A program made the translations under genes and the position numbers. The notes beneath the pieces are model-generated. The model saw only the letters and a program-made list of their open reading frames with translations. It was not told the DNA's origin and did no database searches. A stretch of 64,000 nt of DNA from Jiella pacifica (GTDB lineage Bacteria; Pseudomonadota; Alphaproteobacteria; Rhizobiales; Rhizobiaceae). Positions 4,231 through 34,728 of the stretch are shown in pieces. The first letter of the stretch is position 1, and each line of letters starts with the position of its first letter. Where the stretch lies: assembly GCF_010500815.1 (NCBI RefSeq), contig NZ_JAAAMG010000023.1, positions 1 to 64,000 of the forward strand. Reading direction: 5' to 3'.

Positions 4231-4425
4231 GCGGCATCCCCCCAAAACCGTCGGGGATCGACGTTTCAGGGCCGGCCCTTGCCGGCTCGTCGTCCACCGC
4301 TTCATCTTTGTCGATCCGGCGGAGCCGCCGGTTGTCAGGAGACGAGGCGACAATGTCGCCGCGTGAAAGTCCGGTTGCGTTAAGCAAAATCACGCCATTG
4401 CGCAAGAGTGGCGATCATCGTGTCA

Positions 4426-4444
4426 TGGTAAGCGCAAGTTACCA
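4426..4444. promoter_or_regulatory. TGGTAA-N7-TTACCA palindrome in TRAP promoter region
   Basis: A perfect six-base inverted repeat, TGGTAA and TTACCA separated by seven bases, lies about 195 bp upstream of dctQ. It is in the 345-bp gap that separates dctQ (minus) from a small plus-strand gene. TGGT...ACCA symmetry is common for GntR-family operators that control solute uptake genes, so an operator is plausible. No regulator gene is adjacent. Nothing else is recognisable in this gap. Confidence 0.4.
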
Positions 4445-4575
4445 CTCGGGAGATCGTGCGGCCGACGGGCAGGGGACTTTCGCCGCGGCGCGGCAGCCCG
4501 TGCCGGGGCGAGGACAGGCGCGGTGAAATTGCGCGCTGCGCCGAGAGCGTATGGACAGGCGGGAGCAATCGGGCC

Positions 4576-4839
4576 ATGTCGTCGGCGATGAGCGAAGAAC
4601 CCGCCCCGCATTGGCCGCGCTTCATGACCGACAAGGAGTTGAGGGCCTATTTCGGCCTCTCCGAGCGGGCGCTCAAGCGCTATCGCGATTTGAAGGAATT
4701 TCCCCAGAAGGACGTGGTGGCGGGGAAGACCGATTCGGCGGCCGTCGCGCGGTTCTTCGACTGGGTGGCGGGAATTGCAGAACGGCCGCCGCGGCCGAAC
4801 AGCCGGTATCTGCCGTCGAGTGAAAAGCCCAAGGCTTGA
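4576..4839 (+). CDS. Small helix-turn-helix protein
   Basis: This gene encodes about 87 residues. The core from TDKELRAYFGLSERALKRYR onward reads as a helix-turn-helix: a helix, a GLS turn and a recognition helix. It is followed by a segment (KTDSAAVARFFDWV) that resembles excisionase or phage-type winged-helix proteins of alphaproteobacteria. The start could be 4576, 4588 or 4624; I chose 4576 because GGGAG precedes it. It is transcribed divergently from the TRAP permease genes. DNA binding is inferred from the fold pattern only. Confidence 0.6.
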   Translation: MSSAMSEEPAPHWPRFMTDKELRAYFGLSERALKRYRDLKEFPQKDVVAGKTDSAAVARFFDWVAGIAERPPRPNSRYLPSSEKPKA

Positions 4840-5124
4840 GCAGGGCGCCGTAACGGACTGCCGAACGACCGAATGGCCTGATGCTGCGCTGGCCGGGCGA
4901 AGACGCCGGTGTGCGGCGAATCGCGCTTCTGCAACAGGCTTCTGCTGCGGTGGGCGCCCCACCGAAGGGCGGGACGCCGGAAGGTCGTCGATGTCTCCGA
5001 ACTCAAAGCTCGGGGTCCGAAAGCGGCACAAATCGATTTGCCATCATGTGCCTGGCGGGATCGGAACTCGCCGATCTGGCTCAGGCGTCGCGGCGAAGGT
5101 CGCGATCGTGACGCCAGCCCACGC

Positions 5125-5424
5125 TCACTTGCCGAACGTGGCGCCCGAACCGGGTACGAGGACGCTCGGACGGACGTGCGAGGAGTCCGTCTCCGCCGAT
5201 GTCTGGTCGTCGACGTTGCGACGCAGCGCGGATGCGGGCGCATTATAGGTGCGGGTCGAGCCTGTCGTGACGGCATCGTCGGACCGGACCTTCGGAGCGG
5301 GCTGGACCTGGGGCGCCTCGTAGAAGTCTGCGCCCGAGCCCGGCACGAGACCTGCGGCGAAGGACGTCGCCGGGGCGGCGAGCAGCCCGCCCATTGCGAC
5401 CGCGATGGTGAGATATGTCTTCAT
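5125..5424 (-). CDS. Small exported protein with two VPGSGA repeats
   Basis: The 99-residue product has a signal peptide (MKTYLTIAVAMGGLL...SFA, cut near residue 23). Its mature part is only about 75 residues. The mature N-terminus reads GLVPGSGADF and the extreme C-terminus LVPGSGATFGK, so the same VPGSGA-x-F motif brackets a polar, low-complexity middle. The start is placed at ATG 5424, preceded by AGGAAA; an upstream ATG at 5451 would bury the signal peptide. It is divergent from the lysR gene with about 135 bp between them, so LysR control is plausible. I do not recognise the family. Confidence 0.65.
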   Translation of the reverse strand: MKTYLTIAVAMGGLLAAPATSFAAGLVPGSGADFYEAPQVQPAPKVRSDDAVTTGSTRTYNAPASALRRNVDDQTSAETDSSHVRPSVLVPGSGATFGK

Positions 5425-5529
5425 CGTCGTTTTCCTGTTTCGACTGGACACCAGGGCGACGACAAAATGTCGCAGCCGGTCCTGTCGCTGGTCTATCCTT
5501 GCAACACGAACTGCTGTAGAGCCATGAGC

Positions 5530-5556
5530 GGGACATCCTGTCCCATTTGTGGGACA
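5530..5556. promoter_or_regulatory. Overlapping GGGACA/TGTCCC palindromes at lysR start
   Basis: Three half-sites alternate in orientation within 27 bases: GGGACA (5530), TGTCCC (5539) and GGGACA (5551). They give two overlapping palindromes, GGGACA-N3-TGTCCC and TGTCCCA-N4-TGGGACA, and the second ends four bases before the lysR start codon. A bound protein would block lysR translation or transcription, so autorepression or control of the divergent small gene is likely. It differs from the classic T-N11-A LysR box. Confidence 0.5.
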
Positions 5557-5560
5557 TGAG

Positions 5561-6511
5561 ATGCGCGACCTGAACGACTTCCGCTATTTCGAGGCCGTCG
5601 TGCGTAACGCTGGTTTCAACGCCGCCTCGCGGGACCTCGGGGTCAGCAAGTCGACGCTGTCGCGCCGGATCCTCGCGCTCGAACAGGATCTCGGCGTCCG
5701 CCTGATCGAGCGGACCACCCACAGTTTCTCCGTGACGGCGGTCGGCAACGAATTCTACGAAAAATGCCGCGTCGCGGTGACGGAACTGGAATCGGCGGAG
5801 ATGCTGGCGACGGCGATGAGCGCCGAGCCGCGCGGCCTCGTGACCGTCGCCTGCCTGCCAGGGGCCTGCGCCGCGACCCTTGGGGCCGGACTGCCCGACT
5901 TCCTCGATCGATATCCCAAGGTGAAGATCCGCATGGTGATTGGCCAGCGGCGATTCGACCTGGCCGAAGAACACATCGACGTGGCAATCCGCGGCAGCCG
6001 GCTGGACCAGCCGGGGGATGGCGATCTGGTCATCAAGCGGATCGCCGACATCGCCTCCCGACTGGTTGCCAGCCCGCAATATCTCGCGCGCGCCGGCTCT
6101 CCCTCCACTCCGGAGGAGATCTCGCGCTTTGCGACGATCGCGCGCGATGCGGGCGAGGCCGGCGAAACGGAAGTCTGGCGGCTGGTGCATCGCAGCGGCG
6201 AGGCGCGCACCGTTCGGATCGAGCCGCGGATCGTCGCGCAATCCCTGGCGGTGCATGCCCAGGCGGTCAAGCGAGGCGGCGGCATCGCCTTGTTGCCGGA
6301 GCCGTTCACGGCCGGCATGATCCGTTCGGGAGAGCTCGTCCGGGTGCTGCCCGCTTGGGCGGGCGAGGGCGAGACGCTGCATATCGCCTTCACCTCCCGC
6401 CGCGCCATGTTGCCCGCCGTGCGGGTGTTCATCGATTTCGCCCACGCCCAGCTGCGGGGATTGCTGCGCGGCACATGCGACAGCCTCGCCGACTTCGTCG
6501 ATGCGGCCTGA
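5561..6511 (+). CDS. LysR-family transcriptional regulator
   Basis: The 316-residue product has the standard LysR layout. A winged helix-turn-helix occupies residues 1-60 (DFRYFEAVVRNAGFNAAS, then KSTLSRRI). The effector-binding domain begins near residue 90 with RGLVTVACLPGA. The start at 5561 gives the usual MRDLNDFRYF N-terminus; an in-frame start 12 bases earlier would lie inside the palindrome. It is divergent from a small exported protein gene, and recX starts 20 bases after its stop. The effector and targets are unknown. Confidence 0.9.
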   Translation: MRDLNDFRYFEAVVRNAGFNAASRDLGVSKSTLSRRILALEQDLGVRLIERTTHSFSVTAVGNEFYEKCRVAVTELESAEMLATAMSAEPRGLVTVACLPGACAATLGAGLPDFLDRYPKVKIRMVIGQRRFDLAEEHIDVAIRGSRLDQPGDGDLVIKRIADIASRLVASPQYLARAGSPSTPEEISRFATIARDAGEAGETEVWRLVHRSGEARTVRIEPRIVAQSLAVHAQAVKRGGGIALLPEPFTAGMIRSGELVRVLPAWAGEGETLHIAFTSRRAMLPAVRVFIDFAHAQLRGLLRGTCDSLADFVDAA

Positions 6512-22295: not shown

Positions 22296-22448
22296 GGCGG
22301 CCATGACGGCGCAGGCGCTTCCAGCACGGTCGACCCGCAGCCTCGGGGCCTCGGCGCCAGGGCGTCCGACCGCCGCGGGCGCGGCGCTTGCTGTCGCGTC
22401 GGGCCGGCGGTGCGGAGATGCCGCGGGCGCCTTGCGCGGGGCCTGCCT

Positions 22449-22928
22449 ATGAGCGGTGGGCCGGACGACGAACGGGCCGAAGCGGATGCTTCGGCCAGCC
22501 ACGCCCGACCAAAGATCTCTTCCGTCCTGTTCCTTTGCGGCATGAATTCCATCCGCTCGCCGATGGCCGAGGCCTTGGCGAAGGAGTTCCTACCCTCCAC
22601 GGTCTACATCGCCTCCGCCGGCGTCCGTCTGGGCCAGCGCGACCCCTTCGTCGACACGGTCCTCGCCGAGCGGGGGCTGTCCCTCGGCGAGCGCCAGCCG
22701 CAGCGCTACGAGGACATGGAGGACGGCTATTTCGACCTGATCGTCACCATGGCCCCGGAAGCCCACCACGTCGCCCTAGACGCCACCGGGACGTCCTCGG
22801 TGGAGGTCGAGTTCTGGCCGATGCCGGACCCCTCCGTCGTCACCGGCTCGCGCGAGCAGATCCTCGACGCCTATCGCGACGTGCTGCGGCGGATCGAGGC
22901 GCGGATCGCCGGGCGGTTCGGGCGGTGA
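22449..22928 (+). CDS. Low-molecular-weight protein phosphatase / arsenate reductase family protein
   Basis: The 159-residue protein carries the P-loop C-x5-R motif (FLCGMNSIRSPMAEAL, Cys30 and Arg36) and a C-terminal MPDP acid loop. These are the catalytic features of low-molecular-weight tyrosine phosphatases and thioredoxin-linked arsenate reductases. The substrate is unclear. The N-terminus has a polar extension of about 20 residues; I chose ATG 22449. In related genomes this gene is usually followed by housekeeping genes; here it is followed by the Hint gene array. A frameshifted copy of its 3' end lies at 24194-24374. Confidence 0.88.
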   Translation: MSGGPDDERAEADASASHARPKISSVLFLCGMNSIRSPMAEALAKEFLPSTVYIASAGVRLGQRDPFVDTVLAERGLSLGERQPQRYEDMEDGYFDLIVTMAPEAHHVALDATGTSSVEVEFWPMPDPSVVTGSREQILDAYRDVLRRIEARIAGRFGR

Positions 22929-23183: not shown

Positions 23184-24125
23184 ATGGCAACAATCAACAT
23201 CCCCTATTCGAATTACATCCTTCCGAACGGAGATGGGACATATTATATTTATGCCAGCAAGCCGTCGGTTGCCGCGCTTCCTGTCACGGATGTCGATGAT
23301 GGCAATGGCGATGACTTGACGATCCTCGGCGACGTTTCGACGGGCGACACGATGGCCTCGTTCGACGACAACAACGTTTACGAAGGAACTTATATCGCAG
23401 CCACGCAGAACGGTTTCATTTTCGAGCGCTATGGACTGCACTACGTCTATTCGACCGTCCAGTATACCGGCTCCGAGACGATCGTGGCCTTGGATCAGCC
23501 CTATGCGATCTGCTTTGGCGCCGGGACGCGAATCGAAACGCTCCACGGGCAGGTCGCCGTCGAAGCACTCGTCGCCGGCGATGTCGCGGTGACGGCCTCC
23601 GGTGCAGAGCGCCCAATCGTCTGGGTCGGCTGCCGCACGCTCGACTGCTCCGGCGACAACGCCCACATGGCGCCGGTCCGGGTTAAGGCAGGGGCATTCG
23701 GCGCCGGCGTCCCCGAGCGCGACGTGCTGCTGTCGCCCGGCCACCCCGTCCTCGTTCGTCAGAACGGCGTGGAAGTGCTGGTTCCGATCATGAACCTGAT
23801 CAATGGCACGACCATCGAGCGCACATCGATGCCGTCCGTCACCTACTGGCATATCGAACTCGACCAGCACGACGTGCTGCTCGTCGACGGCCTGCCGGCG
23901 GAGAGCTTCTTCGACATGGGCTCGCGCGGCTGGTTCGACCACGATCTCGATGACATTCTCGCCAATCCGGATCTGGTTCCGGCCGGCCAGCATGGCCGTT
24001 GCCGCGAAGTGGCGATCGACGGGCCGCTGGTCGAGGCCGAGCGCAGGCGCCTCGCCGATCTGTTTTATGCGGATCTGTCCGCCCAGTGCGCCTGGCCGAG
24101 CGCGGGGGCATACGCCTCCGCCTGA
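23184..24125 (+). CDS. Hint-domain protein, paralogue A
   Basis: This 313-residue protein has two parts. Residues 1-108 form a divergent, beta-rich, Asp/Tyr-rich module with no signal peptide. From Cys110 (ICFGAGTRIETL) a Hint domain of the Hint_2 type begins, with GDVAVTASG, VPERDVLLSPGHPVLV, VPIMNLINGTTI and YWHIELDQHDVLL. A conserved tail of about 60 residues follows. Hint domains can self-cleave through the first Cys; no host protein is split here, so it is not an intein. The start at 23184 (MATINI) follows GGAAAA. The 3' part is nearly identical to that of paralogue B. Confidence 0.85.
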   Translation: MATINIPYSNYILPNGDGTYYIYASKPSVAALPVTDVDDGNGDDLTILGDVSTGDTMASFDDNNVYEGTYIAATQNGFIFERYGLHYVYSTVQYTGSETIVALDQPYAICFGAGTRIETLHGQVAVEALVAGDVAVTASGAERPIVWVGCRTLDCSGDNAHMAPVRVKAGAFGAGVPERDVLLSPGHPVLVRQNGVEVLVPIMNLINGTTIERTSMPSVTYWHIELDQHDVLLVDGLPAESFFDMGSRGWFDHDLDDILANPDLVPAGQHGRCREVAIDGPLVEAERRRLADLFYADLSAQCAWPSAGAYASA

Positions 24126-24151
24126 GAACGCTCGATCTCGTCTGCTATTGA

Positions 24152-24182
24152 CGGAGCCCGGTCTGCCTATGGCGGCCGGCCT
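24152..24182 (+). terminator. Decayed terminator hairpin after Hint gene A
   Basis: The sequence GGAGCCCGG...CCGGCCTCC corresponds base for base to the intact hairpin after Hint gene C (27176-27207), with mismatches that weaken the stem and no T run. The bases from the gene A stop codon to this point also match the region after gene C. It is therefore a copy of the same 3' end rather than an independent site. Confidence 0.5.
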
Positions 24183-24193
24183 CCATCGGTACC

Positions 24194-24374
24194 ATGGCGC
24201 CGGAAGTCCACCACGTCGCCCTCGACGCCACAGGCACGTCCTCGGTCGAGGTCGAGTTCTGGCCGATGTCCGACCCCCTCCGCCGTCACCGGCTCGCGCG
24301 AGCAGATCCTCGATGCCTATCGCGACGTCCTAAAGCGCATCGAGGCTCGGATTGCCAAGCGCTTCGGCGAGTGA
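24194..24374 (+). pseudogene. Frameshifted duplicate of the phosphatase gene 3' end
   Basis: This stretch repeats the last 60 codons of the low-molecular-weight phosphatase gene (22750-22928), including MAPE-x-HHVALDATGTSS and the terminal RIEARIA-K/G-RFG block. An extra C in a run of C residues after the MSDP codons shifts the frame. The original C-terminal end reappears in another frame, ending at the TGA at 24372. There is no catalytic P-loop, so it is inactive. Homology begins near 24185, immediately after the decayed terminator, and marks a tandem duplication boundary. Confidence 0.85.
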
Positions 24375-24714
24375 AGCCCCCGGGTCCAAGGCAATCTGCC
24401 ACGACTCGCCAGTCGATCCGACGTATGCGCAGGAGCTCAGTTCGTCCCCATCGCGGAGGGGAGTCCATTCGATCTCACCCTCTGCAGCACATGCAAACCG
24501 CACCCGGACGCGAGCTAACCAGCGGGAAAGATGGCGAAATATTAGACGCAAAGAGGGTATCGTGCGTCTTGCTCGAATCCACAAATTGCGAATAACGTGC
24601 CGGTGAAGATTCGGTCTCTGGACACTCGACGGTCCCGACTCAGCCAAAGCTCGCCATCGGCTCTGGAATCAGTGAAAACACCGCAGTTCGGGCGGAGTAT
24701 GGCAAAGAGGCACC
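24375..24714. other. Intergenic gap before Hint gene B
   Basis: This 340-bp stretch holds no convincing gene. Its right part is less GC-rich than the flanks and ends in AAAGAGGCACC, a good ribosome site for Hint gene B. I see no clear similarity to the leader of Hint gene A beyond the last few bases. It probably contains the promoter of gene B. Confidence 0.4.
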
Positions 24715-25674
24715 ATGGCAACGACGCAAACATTATATCTCCATAATCTCCAGAGAATCTCGCAGGGAAACTATAGGGTCATAGACTCTGGCGTTTATAC
24801 TTATAACGCCGTGGAGAACGGTGGGCCAGGCGATGACGAACTTCGGCTTGGCGATATCGGTGACGACCATTTCCTTCTGACGAATGGAACGGTCAATAAC
24901 GCTGATCTTGATTTCGTCTATCGCTCGGCGCTGCCTTTGAACAGTGGATTTGTCGCGGTTTATTATGACACGGGCGATTATTTTGTTCTGAGTTACAGTA
25001 ATACGTACAGCACTGAGGATACCTTCACGACGATCGATACACCGTTTGCCGTTCAGTGCTTCACGGCGGGGACGCAGATCTCGACGACACTCGGACCGGT
25101 GGCGATCGAGGATCTCTGCGTTGGAAATACTGCCGTGACTGCTTTCGGAACGAGGCGATCGATCAATTGGATCGGCAGCCGGATGATCGATTGCTCCGGC
25201 GAGAACGCCCACATGGCGCCGGTCAGGGTGCGTGCCAATGCCTTTGGCGGCGGCGTCCCTGAGCGCGACGTGCTGCTGTCGCCAGGCCACCCCGTCCTCG
25301 TGCACCAGAACGGCGTCGAGGTTCTCGTGCCGATCATGAACCTGATCAACGGCACGACCATCGAGCGCACGTCGATGCCGTCCGTAACCTACTGGCACAT
25401 CGAGCTGGACCAGCACGACGTGCTGCTCGCCAACGGACTGCCCGCCGAGAGCTTCTTCGACATGGGTTCGCGCGGCTGGTTCGACCACGATCTCGATGAT
25501 GACATTCTCGCCAATCCGGATCTGGTTCCGGCCGGCCAGCATGGCCGTTGCCGCGAAGTGGCGATCGACGGGCCGCTGGTCGAGGCCGAGCGCAGGCGCC
25601 TGGCGGATCTGTTCTATGCCGATCTGTCGGCCCAGTGCGCCTGGCCAGACGCGGGGGCTTACACGGTCAACTGA
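24715..25674 (+). CDS. Hint-domain protein, paralogue B
   Basis: The 319-residue protein repeats the layout of paralogue A. A divergent N-terminal module (residues 1-112) contains DDELRLGDIGDDHF, and a Hint_2 domain from Cys115 (QCFTAGTQIST) runs into the same C-terminal tail. The DNA of the N-terminal module is conspicuously AT-richer than that of the Hint part. One codon (GAT) is inserted relative to A within an otherwise identical 131-base block in the tail. No signal peptide is present. The function is unknown; autoprocessing is inferred from the family only. Confidence 0.85.
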   Translation: MATTQTLYLHNLQRISQGNYRVIDSGVYTYNAVENGGPGDDELRLGDIGDDHFLLTNGTVNNADLDFVYRSALPLNSGFVAVYYDTGDYFVLSYSNTYSTEDTFTTIDTPFAVQCFTAGTQISTTLGPVAIEDLCVGNTAVTAFGTRRSINWIGSRMIDCSGENAHMAPVRVRANAFGGGVPERDVLLSPGHPVLVHQNGVEVLVPIMNLINGTTIERTSMPSVTYWHIELDQHDVLLANGLPAESFFDMGSRGWFDHDLDDDILANPDLVPAGQHGRCREVAIDGPLVEAERRRLADLFYADLSAQCAWPDAGAYTVN

Positions 25675-26182
25675 CACCGATGGGCTCGGGCCCTTGGTCA
25701 AGTGCCGCAATCGCAACTTGTCCAGCGGGCGCACGCGTCGAAATCCGGCTACGACATCGAGAGGGCATGAAGCGCGTATCGATGTCGGCCGTCGCGGATC
25801 GGTGACAACGGCGGTTCTGCTTCGCAAAGGCGGCGCCCTCCGCAAGGATGGGCAGCGAAAAATTCATTGCAAAATGGTTACGTTACGTTACTGAGTTGAC
25901 CTACGTACTCCAGATGGAGTGCCGGGAGCCGATTCGCCGCCGCGCGATGTGTGCGACCCGCGCTCGGTCGAAGCCGGGTGCCGGGACTGTTCGCCAGGCT
26001 CTCGAGGCGTCCCATCGCGGTGGCGTGGACGCAACGCTGCTCGCGCATGCCCGATCCAGGCGGGCCGGGCGGCGCGAAGGATTGCCGAGCGTTTCCTCAC
26101 CCAGTCTCAGGGCGCCGGAGGACATATCGGCACATGACGTTCAGCCGGCCTGGGCCGACAGCTCTCGATGGAGCAATCTTGA
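25675..26182. other. 508-bp gap between Hint genes B and C
   Basis: No supported gene was found here. Several frames are open, but their products are Arg/Pro/Ala-rich, typical of chance frames in GC-rich DNA. Just after gene B a self-complementary GGGCTCGGGCCC may weakly terminate. An AT-richer patch near 25850-25910 may hold a promoter. Unlike the region after gene A, there is no phosphatase fragment. Confidence 0.4.
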
Positions 26183-27148
26183 ATGACGAGTATTGCAGGA
26201 TTGTACGCGTTTGGACTGACGCAGACGGATTCCGGTTTCACGATCACTCGCCCGCTGCAACTCACCAATGAGGGGACCTACTACCGCTACACGATTTCCG
26301 ACCAATTTAGTTCCGTAGAAGACGATCTTTCCATACTCGGAGATATCGCCCAAGATGGGTTCGTTGCGGAATCCGGCCCTATAACGCATCAGTTGGTCTA
26401 CATCTCGAAACCTGACGGCGACCTCGGTTTCATCGGCAAGACTAATACGTATTTCTACTATTTGTTCTCGTTCGGATCTCAGATTTACGAGGTCGGTGAT
26501 ACGATTACGCCGGTGTCGGCGTCATTTGCTTTGTGTTTCACCAGCGGGACACGCATTCAGCTTCGGCGCGGCGCCATCGCCATCGACGACCTCGCGATCG
26601 GAGACGAGGTGGTGACATCTTCGGGTACCGGCCGGACGGTCGTCTGGATTGGCCGGCGGACGATCGCATGCACCGGCGACTACGCGCACATGGCGCCGGT
26701 AAGGGTGCGGACCAATGCCTTCGGCGACGGCGTCCCCGAGCGCGACGTCTTCCTGTCGCCGGGCCATCCGGTGCTGGTGAAGCAGGGCGGAGAGGAAGTG
26801 CTGGTCCCGATCATGAATCTGATCAATGGCACGACCATCGAGCGTACGACCATGAGCCGTATCACCTACTGGCACGTCGAGCTCGATCAGCACGACGTCC
26901 TGCTCGCCGACGGACTGCCGGCCGAGAGCTTCTTCGACATGGGCTCGCGCGGCTGGTTCGACCATGACCTCGACGACGCTCTTGCCAATCCCGACCTCGT
27001 CCCCGCCGGCCTGCACGGCCGTTGCCGGGAGGTCGCGATCGACGGCCCGCTGGTCGAGGCCGAGAGGAAGCGTCTCGCCGATCTGTTCTATGCGAATCTG
27101 TCGGCGCAATGCGCCTGGCCGAGTGCGGGGGCATACGCCGCCGCCTGA
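26183..27148 (+). CDS. Hint-domain protein, paralogue C
   Basis: The 321-residue protein is the third member of the array. Its N-terminal module (residues 1-115) differs strongly from A and B but keeps the motif DDLSILGDIAQDGF. The Hint_2 domain starts at Cys118 (LCFTSGTRIQLRRG) and carries the same blocks, with GVPERDVFLSPGHPVLV and VTYWH replaced by ITYWHVELDQHDVLL. The C-terminal tail is close to A and B but more diverged at DNA level. GGAG precedes the ATG by nine bases. It is convergent with engB, with a shared hairpin between them. Confidence 0.85.
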   Translation: MTSIAGLYAFGLTQTDSGFTITRPLQLTNEGTYYRYTISDQFSSVEDDLSILGDIAQDGFVAESGPITHQLVYISKPDGDLGFIGKTNTYFYYLFSFGSQIYEVGDTITPVSASFALCFTSGTRIQLRRGAIAIDDLAIGDEVVTSSGTGRTVVWIGRRTIACTGDYAHMAPVRVRTNAFGDGVPERDVFLSPGHPVLVKQGGEEVLVPIMNLINGTTIERTTMSRITYWHVELDQHDVLLADGLPAESFFDMGSRGWFDHDLDDALANPDLVPAGLHGRCREVAIDGPLVEAERKRLADLFYANLSAQCAWPSAGAYAAA

Positions 27149-27175
27149 GGACGCTCGATCACGATTGCCATGAAA

Positions 27176-27207
27176 AGAGCCCGGTCCGCCAACGGCGGCC
27201 GGGCTCT
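27176..27207 (-). terminator. Bidirectional terminator between Hint gene C and engB
   Basis: AGAGCCCGG and CCGGGCTCT form a nine-pair stem extended by CCGCC/GGCGG around a short loop. On the minus strand the stem is followed by TTTT, so it should terminate engB transcription well. On the plus strand, after Hint gene C, there is no T run. Confidence 0.75.
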
Positions 27208-27224
27208 CGCGTTCGCCTGCCGAG

Positions 27225-27893
27225 CTATTCCGCCAGCGACAGGATCACTGTCCTCAGATCGTCGATGCCGCCGCCCTTTTCCGAAGAGGTGGCGATCAGG
27301 CTCGGAAAGGCGGCCGGCCGCTTTTTCGTCCGCTCCAGTGTCTCGGCGACGAGCCTGTCGACCGCCGGCGGCTTGATCTTGTCGGTCTTGGTGAGAACGA
27401 TCTGGTAGGACATCGCTGCCTTGTCGAGCAGGGTCATCACCTCCTCGTCGTTCGGCTTGATTCCATGGCGCGCGTCGATCAGCAGGAACACCCGCTTGAG
27501 GCTGGTGCGGCCGCGCAGATAGTCGAAGACCAGCGCCGTCCAGGCGTCGACGTGATCTTTAGGGGCCTTGGCATAGCCATAGCCCGGCATGTCGACCAGT
27601 ACGATCGGCGGAAGGCCGGCCTCGACGGCACCGTAGCCATCCGGCACGAAGAAGTTCAACTCCTGCGTCCGGCCCGGCGTGTTCGAGGTGCGGGCAAGGC
27701 CCTTCTGGCCGAGCAGGGCGTTGATCAGCGACGACTTGCCGACGTTGGAGCGCCCCGCGAAGGCGATCTCGGGCGGGCCCTCCGGCGGCAGGAACTTCAG
27801 TGCCGGGACGCCGCGCACGAACACCCAGGGTTTTGCGAAGAAACGCCGGTCGGCCTCGCCCGATCGATCGTCTGCGGTCTCGCCCATGCTCAT
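27225..27893 (-). CDS. engB: Ribosome biogenesis GTP-binding protein EngB (YihA/YsxC)
   Basis: EngB is a small GTPase needed for large-subunit ribosome assembly. The 222-residue protein shows the P-loop GRSNVGKSS, the switch region with [18 protein letters not shown] (G3), TKTDKI (G4) and a final SS motif (G5). The start ATG 27893 overlaps the stop of the acetyltransferase gene as ATGA, so translation is coupled. It is the distal gene of the rpmH-rnpA-yidC side of the locus, an arrangement common in alphaproteobacteria. Confidence 0.95.
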
Positions 27894-28528
27894 CGTGCCG
27901 CTTCCAGTGTCTCGATGTCGGCGCCGCGAATGGCGTCGAGATTGCGGGTAATCTTGTCTGCCGGCCAATCCCACCAGCCAACGGTGAGGAGGCGGGCGAT
28001 GGTCGTTTCGTCGAAGCGGCTTTTCACCACTCGCGCCGGGTTGCCGCCGACGATGGCATAGGGCGGAACGTCCGAAACGACCGTCGACCGGGCCCCGACG
28101 ATCGCGCCGTCGCCGATGGTCACGCCCGGCATGACGAGGCTCTCCATGCCGAGCCAGACGTCGTTTCCGACGACCGTGTCGCCGCGGCTCTGGCCCGTCC
28201 AGGACGAGACGTCGAATCCTGCCTCCCAGCCATTTTGGAAGATGTTGAACGGATAGGTGGAAAAGCCGCCCATCGCGTGGTTGGCGCCGTTCATCACGAA
28301 GCGGGTGCCGGCGGCAATCGCCACGAACCGTCCAATGATCAGGCGGTCGCCGTAGAAATCGAAATGATGAAGGACGTTGCGCTCTTCGAAGCGCTCGGCG
28401 CCGTCCGGATCGTCATAGTAGCTGTAGTCGCCGACGACGATGTTCGGCCGGGTGACGACGTTCTTCAGGAAGACCGCGCGTGGAAAACCGGGAAGCGGAT
28501 ACAGCGTCTCGGGGGATGGCCCATGCAT
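27890..28528 (-). CDS. CatB/Vat-type hexapeptide acetyltransferase
   Basis: The 212-residue protein is a left-handed beta-helix acetyltransferase of the xenobiotic acetyltransferase class, with [20 protein letters not shown] containing the catalytic His. Hexapeptide-repeat turns such as [19 protein letters not shown] and IGDGAIVGA follow. Relatives modify chloramphenicol or streptogramin A, but many act on unknown substrates, so resistance should not be assumed. I chose ATG 28528, preceded by AAAGGAG. It lies between yidC and engB, where alphaproteobacteria usually have no such gene. Confidence 0.85.
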
Positions 28529-31143: not shown

Positions 31144-31512
31144 CGTCAAATCCCGCGTGGGCTTAGAACGCGGGCCCTTCAGTCGTGTTCAATCCGGGAA
31201 ACCGGTGCGGCCATCCGAGCGCAAACACCCGTCGCGCGGAACGCCGCCCGCTCGCTAAGCCGCTTATTGGAAGACGTGGCGGGAAAAGTCAATTCCCGAG
31301 TTGGCGATCAGCCGGGCGGAGGTCGAGCCGTGGGGCACGAACGAGGCCGCCACATCTGGCCGCGGTCGGCACGCCCGGGGGACGGCGATCGGTGCGCGAG
31401 GGCGGTGCTGGCGACGCAAATGCTTGTGAGCGTTGCAGTGGTTCGATAAACGTCAAGGCACCTTTTGGGAAAAGTCCGCGGCACGAGTCCTGCCGCCCGA
31501 TCGAGCGGTCAC
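31144..31512. other. Divergent promoter region between rpmH and the LysM gene
   Basis: This 369-bp gap separates rpmH (minus) from the LysM-protein gene (plus) and should hold both promoters. The inverted repeat CCCGCG-N11-CGCGGG at 31152-31174 lies nine bases from the rpmH start codon and could fold in the rpmH leader. No gene was recognised. Confidence 0.4.
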
Positions 31513-34500
31513 ATGCAGCGCAGAGCCCTTGGCATCCTTCTCTTTTGTCTCGTCCTCCTGGTCGCGATCATCGCCGGCTACTGGGACATGCTGGAATCGG
31601 AGAAATTGCGGATCGCCGATCGCGGCGAGGTCAGCCCGCCCGTGCGGGAGGGCACGATCGATCCGACGGGATTTTCGGCAGCGAGCGAACCTTCGGAGAC
31701 GGCCGCCGCCGGCTCGCAAGGCGAGGCTCCAGCCGAGGGGCGGGCGGCGATCGATCGCGGCGAAGACGCTGCGAGGGAGGACGAAGACGCCGGTAAGGAG
31801 ATTGCGTCTCGCGTCACCGGTCGTGAAGCGGCCACTCCGTCCGGCATCGCGGCGGAGGACGAAGCCGAGACGTCGGAGGCCGCATCGCCGCAGGCGGGAG
31901 GTTCTGGCGGCGTGAACGGCGCCAACACGCCCTCGGACGCGGTGGCCGCTCCTGATTCGCCGGGTGCCGACCGCCTCGCTGCGGGAAAGAGCGACCGCCG
32001 CTCGGGGGGCGAGGGCACGGTCATGCCATCGGGCGGCCGATCGCAGGCGGCGACTTCCGTGCCTTCTGGCGGCGATGGACTTGCCGCAGCGAATGCGGGG
32101 ACGCAGCCTTCCACGGAGCCGGATGCAGACCCTGCCAAAGCCGGCGCTACTGCCGGTAACGAGGCCGCAAGCGACAGGGTTGCAGGCGGCGAGGCCCAGC
32201 CAGGCCAGCCGGGCGCCGCGAGCGACGGGGCGCCGGAAACGGCCGGGACCTCCATGACCGAGACGAACAGGCGGCAGGCAGCCGCGGGGCTCGAGCAGCC
32301 GGCAGAGGCGTCGGGGGCTTCGGCGTCCCGGCCGGGGGAAAGCACCGCGATGGCGCCTGGGGCGCTGCAGGAGACGACGGACACCGCATCAGCGTCGGCA
32401 GGGCACGATGGGGATGTGGCGGAGGCGGGTCATGAGGGCGGTCGGTCCGCTGGCGATGGCGCGGTTGTGGCAGCCGAGGCAAGCGAAGACGCGGCGCCGG
32501 CCGCCGCCGGTGCGCCGTCCGAAGCGGTTGGGGCAGGTGGGCCGAGGGTGGCGGACGCCGACGAGCCGCGCTTCGACATTCTGCGCGTCGAACCGGACGG
32601 CTCGACGCTGGTCGCCGGCCGCTCGGCGCCGAACAGCACCGTGACCTTGCGCGACGGCGACGAGACCCTCGGCAGCGACAAGGCGGGTCGGGACGGCGAT
32701 TTCGTCATCGTTCTCGACCGGCCGCTTCAACCCGGCGATCACTCGATCCAGATCCATTCCGAAGACGAAAGCGGCAGCGCCAGGACGTCCCGCGAGACGG
32801 CGGTGGTCTCCGTACCGCAGGACGGCAGGGCTGAGGATCTCCTCGCGATGATCGAAGAGCCCGGTGCGCCCTCCCGCCTGATCGACACGCCCGCCGCTCG
32901 CGCTCCCGCCACCGGCACGCAGGCCGGGGAACCGGTCGACGAGCGTGCGTCCGCAGCTTCGAAAGACGGCGCGCCCGGCGGTTCGGCGACGGGCGTCGAT
33001 GCCGCCTCGGTTGCCCGACTGGAAGCACCTGTCGATGCCGCCGCCGAGCCGGCGGACGGCGCGGGGGCGAACGGCAGTGATGTCGCGGGCCTCACGTCAT
33101 CGCAGGGAGAGGCCGCTACACCGCCTGCCGACGGCGAGAGCGTCGTCGCCGATTCAAGCGGGTCTGCCGGCGAGGCGGCCGGAACGGAAAGTCCTGCCGG
33201 GCAACGGCAGGCGTCGGTTGCCCCGTCCGCTTCGGCCCTTGCCGAAACGACCGGCCCTGCGGCGGCCGAGGCGCCGCTGCGGGTCGAGGCCGTAGAGATC
33301 GACGACGGCAAGATCTTCATCGCAGGCTCGGCCGAGCCCGGCACGCGCTTCCGCGTCTATGTCGACAACCAACCCTTTGCGGCTGGAACGGCCGATCGCA
33401 ATGGCCGCTTCGTCGTTTCGAGCGATCAGCAGCTTTCGGTCGGCGATCACCTCATCCGGGTCGATCAATTGTCCGGGGCGAGCGACGTCACCGCCCGCGT
33501 CGAGGTGCCGTTCTTCCGGCCGGAAGGCAATTCCCTAGCTGCCGTCGCCGAGAACGAAGCTGGTCCCGACCGGATGCCGGAGCTGGCTGCCGCGGACGTG
33601 CCGCAGGCGGCTTCGGAACCGCAGACTACGTCGACCGCGGCTGCAGCACCCGTCGAGCAGGCGGAGGCTGCCCCGCAAGGCCGGGAGGAGCCGATCGGCC
33701 CGGCGTCGACCGAGGTGGCAGAGCCCGAGATTGCGGAGCGCCAGTCGCCGCGCGGGGAAGCAACGTCCGGCGGCGAGCCGCAACCGGCTTCCACCGCAAC
33801 GGATGACGATCCCACGACGGCGCCCGGCGCGCCGCCGGCCAGTGACGGCCAGCGACAGGACGAGGACACCCAGCTTGCTGCCCGGCTATCCGGCGGGTCC
33901 AGCGCGCCCGAGCCGGCCGCCTCTTCGGGCCCTGGAGCAACGGCGGATGCACCGACCTTCGATCGCGCCGCCGCTGCCGCCGCTGGCGAGAGCAATGACG
34001 AAGCCGCCGCCTCCGGCGCGCAGAGCGTTACTCCGTCGCCTGCCAATGCCAATGCCAATGCCAATTCCGGCTCGCGTATCGCCACGGATGGCGCGCCGTC
34101 TCTCGATCCGCTTGGTGCTCTCGCGCCGGGTGCCGCGGGCGGCGTGACCGACGGGCTCGCTGAAGCGGACGGCGAGACGACACGCGGAGGACGTGTCGTC
34201 GCCCAGCGCCGGGATGCCGATGGCCGCGAGGAAGCCGGTACCACCGAGCAAGCCGAGGATACGCAAGGGGAGCTGTCCGACAGGACGGCGAGCAGTGACG
34301 GCGAAGGTGCTGGCGAACCCGCCAATGCCGGCGGCGCGACCGCTTCCGCATCGGGTGGCGAGGCGACGGCGGAGGCCGATACATCGGCACCAGGTCCCGA
34401 CGCCGCGGGCTCCGTCACGCCTTTGGCGGAAGAAGATCGCCAGGGCGATGTCGCATCGGCCGACAAGTCCGGGCGTGTTCCGCTTCTTCGCCAGCCGGCG

Positions 34501-34728
34501 CTCGCCGCGGCCAAGTCCAGCAGGGTGATCATCCGCAAGGGGGACACGCTGTGGCGCATCTCGCGGGACAGCTATGGCGCCGGGCATCGCTACACGGTGA
34601 TCTATCTTGCCAATGGCGATCAGATCCGCGATCCGAATCTCATCTATCCAGGGCAGGTCTTCCGCATGCCGGAAGAGCAACGCAGCGAGGCGGCCGGCGA
34701 AAATGCCTCTTCGCGCGCAGTCGAATAG
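31513..34728 (+). CDS. Large membrane-anchored LysM and Ig-like domain protein
   Basis: The 1071-residue protein starts with a single membrane anchor or signal (LGILLFCLVLLVAIIAGYW). Most of the rest is Ala/Gly/Glu/Ser/Pro-rich low-complexity sequence. Two related Ig-like folds stand out at about residues 353-440 and 588-673, each with a G(S/R)(A/S)xPx(S/T) turn and an LxxGDHxI strand. A LysM domain follows at about 1004-1055 (KGDTLWRISRDSYGAGHRY), which should bind peptidoglycan. Alphaproteobacteria often encode a LysM/Ig-like protein of this kind; the exceptional part here is the length of the linkers. A cell-envelope role is inferred. Confidence 0.8.
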   Translation: MQRRALGILLFCLVLLVAIIAGYWDMLESEKLRIADRGEVSPPVREGTIDPTGFSAASEPSETAAAGSQGEAPAEGRAAIDRGEDAAREDEDAGKEIASRVTGREAATPSGIAAEDEAETSEAASPQAGGSGGVNGANTPSDAVAAPDSPGADRLAAGKSDRRSGGEGTVMPSGGRSQAATSVPSGGDGLAAANAGTQPSTEPDADPAKAGATAGNEAASDRVAGGEAQPGQPGAASDGAPETAGTSMTETNRRQAAAGLEQPAEASGASASRPGESTAMAPGALQETTDTASASAGHDGDVAEAGHEGGRSAGDGAVVAAEASEDAAPAAAGAPSEAVGAGGPRVADADEPRFDILRVEPDGSTLVAGRSAPNSTVTLRDGDETLGSDKAGRDGDFVIVLDRPLQPGDHSIQIHSEDESGSARTSRETAVVSVPQDGRAEDLLAMIEEPGAPSRLIDTPAARAPATGTQAGEPVDERASAASKDGAPGGSATGVDAASVARLEAPVDAAAEPADGAGANGSDVAGLTSSQGEAATPPADGESVVADSSGSAGEAAGTESPAGQRQASVAPSASALAETTGPAAAEAPLRVEAVEIDDGKIFIAGSAEPGTRFRVYVDNQPFAAGTADRNGRFVVSSDQQLSVGDHLIRVDQLSGASDVTARVEVPFFRPEGNSLAAVAENEAGPDRMPELAAADVPQAASEPQTTSTAAAAPVEQAEAAPQGREEPIGPASTEVAEPEIAERQSPRGEATSGGEPQPASTATDDDPTTAPGAPPASDGQRQDEDTQLAARLSGGSSAPEPAASSGPGATADAPTFDRAAAAAAGESNDEAAASGAQSVTPSPANANANANSGSRIATDGAPSLDPLGALAPGAAGGVTDGLAEADGETTRGGRVVAQRRDADGREEAGTTEQAEDTQGELSDRTASSDGEGAGEPANAGGATASASGGEATAEADTSAPGPDAAGSVTPLAEEDRQGDVASADKSGRVPLLRQPALAAAKSSRVIIRKGDTLWRISRDSYGAGHRYTVIYLANGDQIRDPNLIYPGQVFRMPEEQRSEAAGENASSRAVE
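34042..34065 (+). repeat. Hexanucleotide repeat (GCCAAT)4 inside the LysM gene
   Basis: Four perfect copies of GCCAAT encode an Ala-Asn run in the low-complexity linker before the LysM domain. Because the unit is six bases, copy-number change would lengthen or shorten the linker without breaking the frame. Confidence 0.8.

Follow-up and report, generated by a model that had tools for sequence, protein, structure and literature searches.

Why do three neighboring genes of Jiella pacifica encode proteins that end almost alike and begin so differently? The window, that is, the whole 64,000-nt stretch of DNA analyzed here, is part of one assembly (G000; 5.77 Mb, scored 97% complete), which we compared within a set of ten genomes of the genus (G000 to G009). 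Its positions 23184-27148 hold three complete open reading frames (ORFs) on the + strand: gene a (23184-24125, 313 residues), gene b (24715-25674, 319 residues) and gene c (26183-27148, 321 residues). We lean, by a little more than an even chance, toward the array being a local expansion of a two-part family of the genus Jiella, in which a small, acidic, Cys-free beta head is joined to a constant C-terminal processing module. This leaning covers the explanation as a whole: family expansion, release of the head, recombination between head and module, and the role of the heads.

All three proteins match the Pfam family Hint_2 (PF13403; E 3e-41, 4e-40 and 4e-42 for genes a, b and c, or 141.6, 137.9 and 144.5 bits against a curated cut-off of 28.4), and the Pfam scan placed no other family over its cut-off in them. 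The Hint cysteine is residue 110, 115 and 118, respectively, preceded by heads of 109, 114 and 117 residues. An earlier, sequence-only reading of this DNA had described three adjacent genes with a near-constant Hint_2 domain and strongly differing heads, which pairwise identities of 69–78% (Hint) and 25–28% (heads) confirm. The tails are near-identical as it had said (89–95%), though about 70 rather than 60 residues long, and its three-gene array is not isolated: G000 carries nine Hint_2 genes at six places, namely the three of the array, a tandem pair on contig 73 and single genes on contigs 18, 23, 56 and 74. Over the 36 pairs of these nine genes, mean identity is 25% in the head, 73% in the Hint domain and 80% in the tail. 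The first ~50 residues of the Hint domain are intermediate (56% mean identity within genomes), and change is thus not confined to the part upstream of the cysteine.

Across the genus, Hint matches occur in eight of the ten genomes (9, 8, 0, 2, 8, 1, 3, 0, 3 and 1 in G000 to G009, fragments included). The 25-gene set used below (9, 5, 0, 2, 5, 0, 1, 0, 2 and 1 genes) excludes contig-edge pieces (C40 of G004, C3 and C17 of G006), decayed fragments (G001, G004, G008) and a weak match in G005. Two G001 genes (L150, L151) lose their frame in the tail and were cut there rather than mended; that assembly is scored 84% complete, and sequencing insertions or deletions are possible. The closest among the 79 loci kept come from J. 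pelagia, J. avicenniae, Aurantimonas sp. 22II-16-19i and a Fulvimarina metagenome-assembled genome.

Do the heads have anything in common? Scored against 500 shuffles, they resemble each other with z values of 4.8 (a-b), 4.2 (a-c) and 8.6 (b-c), the a-c score being no higher than the best shuffle. A profile made from the heads of other genomes matches all three (E 1.6e-17, 5.2e-22 and 5e-14 for a, b and c), which rules out unrelated modules; built without G000, it finds eight of the nine G000 heads (E 2e-10 to 1e-26). Searched separately, the array heads are as divergent as first described, but they are one homologous, all-beta family. The ninth G000 head (contig 74, L013:4144-5085) scores no better than shuffles in front of a typical Hint domain, and may belong to a second head family. 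Two features picked out from the array, a DD/DE-L-x-LGDI/V motif and a Tyr-rich stretch ahead of the cysteine, are real and recur through the family, whose consensus reads G-x-Y...D-D-L-T-x-L-G-D-I/V...T-Y...G-F-I...Y-Y-L-F...Y, then Cys. The 25 heads contain 2.2% K+R, 10.8% D+E, 7.9% Tyr, 11.4% Thr and no Cys, and the GC content of their DNA is 0.40-0.62, against 0.59-0.73 for the tails. AlphaFold2 folds the gene a head alone into an all-beta domain (predicted local distance difference test, pLDDT, 89.5; predicted template modeling score, pTM, 0.82), for which searches of the PDB and of viral models returned no convincing relative.

What would the constant part do? Cys1, SPGHP and ELDxHD are kept in 25 of 25 Jiella genes, and a C-terminal His-Asn, judged by pattern, in none. 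In gene a, Cys1 is C110, SPGH occupies residues 184-187, and ELDQHD forms a block F-like motif followed by PAES, without HN. With Cys1 and SxxH retained but no C-terminal His-Asn, the module probably cleaves at its N-terminal side and is unlikely to splice, as in B-type bacterial intein-like (BIL) domains. After folding, Cys1 would attack the carbonyl of the last head residue in an N-to-S shift, and water or another nucleophile would resolve the thioester, freeing the head from the module without splicing. A self-releasing head would be the most economical account of the array proteins. The activity might instead have been lost, the Hint domain persisting as a constant scaffold in proteins that are never cleaved. 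The missing C-terminal motif agrees with this, as does a literature that, among the matches listed, holds no cleavage test of this Hint subfamily; yet we think such a loss quite unlikely, given the motifs kept throughout Jiella and the invariance of Cys1 and of the S and H of SxxH in all 47 distant homologues (selected from 68 non-Jiella homologous ORFs found), most of which bear unlike heads. A point against self-release is that the model has pLDDT <50 at the active-site loop (110-114) and in the tail (236-283). A bolder variant, which we hold to be a long shot, treats Hint_2 and tail as the bacterial equivalent of the Hedgehog Hog unit. The head thioester would then be resolved by a small nucleophile (lipid, amine or sugar) held out by the tail; each cell would in this way tag a set of variable heads covalently at their C-terminus, and the chromosome would serve as a store of heads recombining at fixed sites and changing the coat between lineages.

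Do the heads follow their sites? Flank comparison defined four sites: A, the array's own, with three genes in G000 and one in G001; B, adjoining a molybdopterin-type dehydrogenase (two genes each in G000 and G004, one each in G001, G003 and G008); C (G000, G001, G006); and D (G000, G001, G003, G004, G008, G009), where three of the six, G001, G004 and G008, are linked to G000 through the right flank only. Mean head identity is 34% in 40 same-site pairs from different genomes versus 31% in 202 different-site pairs, the corresponding means being 85 versus 83% for the C-terminal part of the Hint domain (Hint-C) and 83 versus 79% for the tail. At site A, the three G000 heads share 38, 30 and 27% identity with the single G001 head, and Hint-C 92, 92 and 87%; engB is 97% identical between the two genomes (synonymous divergence, dS, 0.29), the neighboring phosphatase gene 88% (dS 0.38) and 2.5 kb of downstream flank 92%. 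Placing the seven site-B heads in one clade is rejected (log-likelihood difference 68.9; approximately unbiased, AU, test p 0.0009); doing so for their Hint-C/tail sequences is not (p 0.21). Here the seven-row site-B, five-row site-D (without G009_C21) and site-A groups were taken from the flanks; five-row site-B and four-row site-D groups and two pair/triple tests were picked after the first tree. Judged by these comparisons, site B clearly does not keep its heads, whereas some sites do, and heads appear to have been exchanged at some matching sites in related species while module and surroundings stayed the same. The proposed layout of a variable head on a constant self-processing module hence stands as to the layout; self-processing is predicted from the motifs.

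Several observations weigh against such exchange. Rejection of head monophyly is no more than borderline at sites A and D (p 0.059 and 0.061; the tails are compatible with one clade, p 0.51 and 0.56), four site-D heads form a group (82/95), and at site C the G000 head has its best match (52%) in that of G001, and vice versa. On quick trees, site labels change 9 times for the head, 11 for the N-terminal part of the Hint domain and 9 for Hint-C/tail; by that measure heads follow sites no worse than the module does. The pairing of the G001_721k and G004_C16a heads is not rejected by the tail tree (p 0.21). No conversion tract was significant after correction in a GENECONV-like silent-site test (best 0.28; three rows were excluded from the larger version), and a 104-bp exact identity between genes a and b in the tail, from codon 256, is nominally unusual on silent sites only (p 0.008; 0.28 corrected). 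Moreover, most head pairs align too poorly to give a firm dS, and differential loss from ancestral arrays could mimic head exchange.

The last point leads to ordinary birth and death of tandem paralogues, in which old, separate heads were never re-joined, species kept different copies and purifying selection held the 3′ part constant. This is a somewhat unlikely competitor. In its favor, site A (G000) and site B (G001, G004, G008) hold tandem arrays and decayed remnants, no conversion tract was significant, and site labels change equally often on the head and tail trees. The ratio of non-synonymous to synonymous divergence (dN/dS) in the heads is <0.4 in six of ten well-aligned pairs, those with finite dS, so heads are on average under constraint, which likewise fits slow divergence. 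Against it, head dS exceeds Hint-C dS in all ten pairs with head identity of at least 0.50 (pairs that share genes and are non-independent); as the comparison is within the same gene pairs, head and module seem to differ in age. In addition, G004_C16a combines a head nearest to site A with the right flank of site B, although the tail tree does not reject the head pairing mentioned above. Taken together, the divergence data agree better with old head lineages that were reassorted or survived differentially than with rapid change within a single lineage.

How might recombination of head and module come about? Tandem duplication of the unit together with its upstream flank could create new combinations, and homologous recombination through the near-constant 3′ module, followed by copy loss, could then leave a fixed site with different old heads in sister species. 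Site A (Table 1) bears traces of the first step. Upstream of the array lie hisD, UPF0262 and the gene of the LMWPc family, downstream YihA/EngB, and the phosphatase-engB junction lacks a Hint gene in five of the ten genomes (G002, G003, G005, G006, G007), with 15-112 bp between the two; in G004, G008 and G009 they lie on different contigs. The array does interrupt a conserved neighborhood near hisD, as had been proposed, and its copy number is not one-to-one across relatives (three in G000, one in G001, empty in five). The spacer between genes a and b contains a half copy of the right flank and a broken phosphatase 3′ end, so a unit from inside the phosphatase gene through the Hint gene was, to judge by these remains, duplicated in tandem. 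The two site-B genes of G004 are likewise separated by a decayed phosphatase 3′ part, 76% identical at the DNA level across 218 columns; it adjoins a gene whose head has its nearest match (66%) in the G001 site-A head. Separately, a single Hint gene, G004_C5 (L152, G004:C5:9500-20500; 4375-6290 and beyond), carries the left-hand flank of site A on one side and the right-hand flank of site C on the other. This suggests a chromosomal rearrangement with its breakpoint in the family, as though Hint genes had provided the crossover point. Further along the window, a 1087-residue Ala/Gly/Glu-rich ORF (31465-34728) ends, by eye, in LysM-like sequence.

Table 1. Array genes, spacers and borders at site A, in window positions.
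Feature	Position	Strand	Basis
Low molecular weight phosphatase / arsenate reductase-like (LMWPc-family) gene, intact; left border of site A	22410..22928	+	Pfam LMWPc, E 3e-12
Gene a, variable head, 109 residues	23184..23510	+	Alignments; leave-genome-out head profile, E 1.6e-17; AlphaFold2 head model, pLDDT 89.5
Gene a, Hint_2 domain	23508..23915	+	PF13403 match; structural match to BIL domains and inteins
Gene a, conserved C-terminal tail, about 70 residues, and stop	23916..24125	+	Alignment
Incomplete copy of the flank on the Hint/engB side, comprising one half of the GC-rich inverted repeat found after gene c	24126..24179	+	By eye, sequences after the stops of a, c and G001_721k
Dead LMWPc fragment, residues 111-171, two frames	24185..24368	+	Two pieces, 85-90% identity
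Gene b, variable head, 114 residues	24715..25056	+	Alignments; head profile, E 5.2e-22
Gene b, Hint_2 (25057-25461) and constant tail	25057..25674	+	PF13403 match; alignment
Spacer b-c	25675..26182		Unmatched elsewhere in the ten genus genomes searched
Gene c, variable head, 117 residues	26183..26533	+	Alignments; head profile, E 5e-14
Gene c, Hint_2 (26531-26938) and constant tail	26531..27148	+	PF13403 match; alignment
Original right flank, containing a GC-rich inverted repeat (by eye), common to the G001 single-gene site	27149..27224		Sequence comparison
engB/yihA; right border of site A	27225..27974	-	TIGR03598, E 8e-60

What, then, are the heads for? They are probably variable external or interaction domains, which is the weakest step of our explanation; exposure outside the cell would explain their composition and the company the module keeps in Methylobacterium. 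One way out would be type I secretion, with the constant C-terminus as secretion and processing module and the heads as variable adhesin or coat domains. Proteins poor in Lys and Arg, acidic and free of Cys are common among type I substrates, and the heads (2.2% K+R, 10.8% D+E, no Cys) look the part. A number of the 47 selected non-Jiella homologues, mostly from Methylobacteriaceae, have an extracellular look, with matches at E up to 0.01 to Peptidase_M10 (seven), RTX repeats (three), PD40 (three) and, once each, GH113, subtilase, AIDA and PATR. PrtD exceeds its cut-off in six of the ten genus genomes, five of which carry the family (G003, G004, G006, G008, G009). The sixth, G007, has no copy, and PrtD is not over cut-off in G001 despite its many Hint copies. 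G000, the genome with most copies, has one OEP/TolC-like gene with strong scores and no PrtD-, HlyB- or HlyD-type protein over the curated cut-off, which leaves export unexplained and counts against external heads. Owing to these mismatches, type I export is not supported as a general route; the Pfam scan of the array proteins also showed no RTX repeat over cut-off, and we regard this alternative as unlikely.

A second thought is that of a polymorphic toxin of the contact-dependent inhibition (CDI)/MafB kind, in which Hint frees a toxic domain from which the producer is shielded by an immunity gene. Passages of PMC3482391 describe many such toxins as processed by Hint domains and their toxin domains as diversified by recombination, and a Colicin_E5 match below threshold (E 0.17) occurs in one homologue out of 36. 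According to the same passages, however, Hint there directly precedes a C-terminal toxin domain, whereas here the C-terminus is the most constant part (80%). With no toxin family over cut-off in the array proteins or the 36 homologues, and with spacers that hold a dead phosphatase fragment (a-b) or DNA unmatched in the genus (b-c), a toxin seems highly improbable.

Beyond Jiella, a Methylorubrum rhodesianum contig (L083) has four tandem Hint ORFs of 347-615 residues; the array layout recurs there with longer N-terminal parts. Hint genes of the Jiella kind also sit on 14 viral-collection contigs (L203-L216), where, by eye and from the starts of translations on 9 of the 14, some of the genes have endolysin-like and glycosyltransferase-like ORFs as neighbors; these Hint genes may be prophage-edge cargo in Methylobacterium. 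In full-text literature searches, titles and abstract openings among the matches listed gave no description of the Jiella Hint family, and Hint domain together with Methylobacterium gave no match. Among the matches listed for Hint_2/PF13403 none had PF13403, the papers apparently concerning the unrelated HINT2, and none listed for Jiella with Hint or intein dealt with Jiella. If cleavage is true, a self-processing domain would be tied to changing heads in ordinary environmental bacteria, and might yield new self-cleaving tags.

How do these proteins compare with known Hint systems? That they fit neither inteins nor known polymorphic toxins, as the sequence-only reading held, is right on the features tested. 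With inteins they share the fold and the N-terminal chemistry motifs; unlike them, they lack His-Asn, a homing endonuclease family match and an interrupted host protein, the whole protein being head, Hint and tail. Polymorphic toxins (CdiA, MafB, Rhs-type) likewise use Hint as a release module in recombining multi-copy families, but the Jiella polarity is opposite, with the variable part N-terminal to Hint, and no toxin domain or immunity gene was recognized. Hedgehog and the nematode Hedgehog-related proteins have an adduct-recognition region after Hint that presents a sterol nucleophile. The Jiella proteins have a conserved, poorly modeled tail after Hint, with no sterol-recognition region recognized; they are bacterial and show, by eye rather than by computed prediction, no signal peptide.

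The array layout appears to match a kind already described, B-type BIL domains in hypervariable proteins (in passages of PMC7765530). As portrayed in parts of PMC7765530 and PMC5874633, these share with the Jiella family the Hint fold, a position-1 nucleophile, a block-B Ser/Thr-x-x-His, a block-F-like motif and the lack of a C-terminal His-Asn, and they too sit in variable, nonconserved bacterial proteins; our assignment is by fold and by motifs A, B and F without His-Asn. What sets the Jiella family apart is the conserved tail of ~70 residues after Hint, together with an N-terminal partner drawn from one defined head family; its genes are present in many copies across the genus, and corresponding sites carry different heads. 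BIL domains are described in part of PMC7765530 as adding post-translational protein variability alongside genetic rearrangement, and four comparable sites, one well-modeled homologous head family and one constant module offer a natural test of that variability. On the sequence comparisons made here, this is a real family carrying differing heads on one module, with clear discordance between head and module at one site, and probably a variant of the BIL kind.

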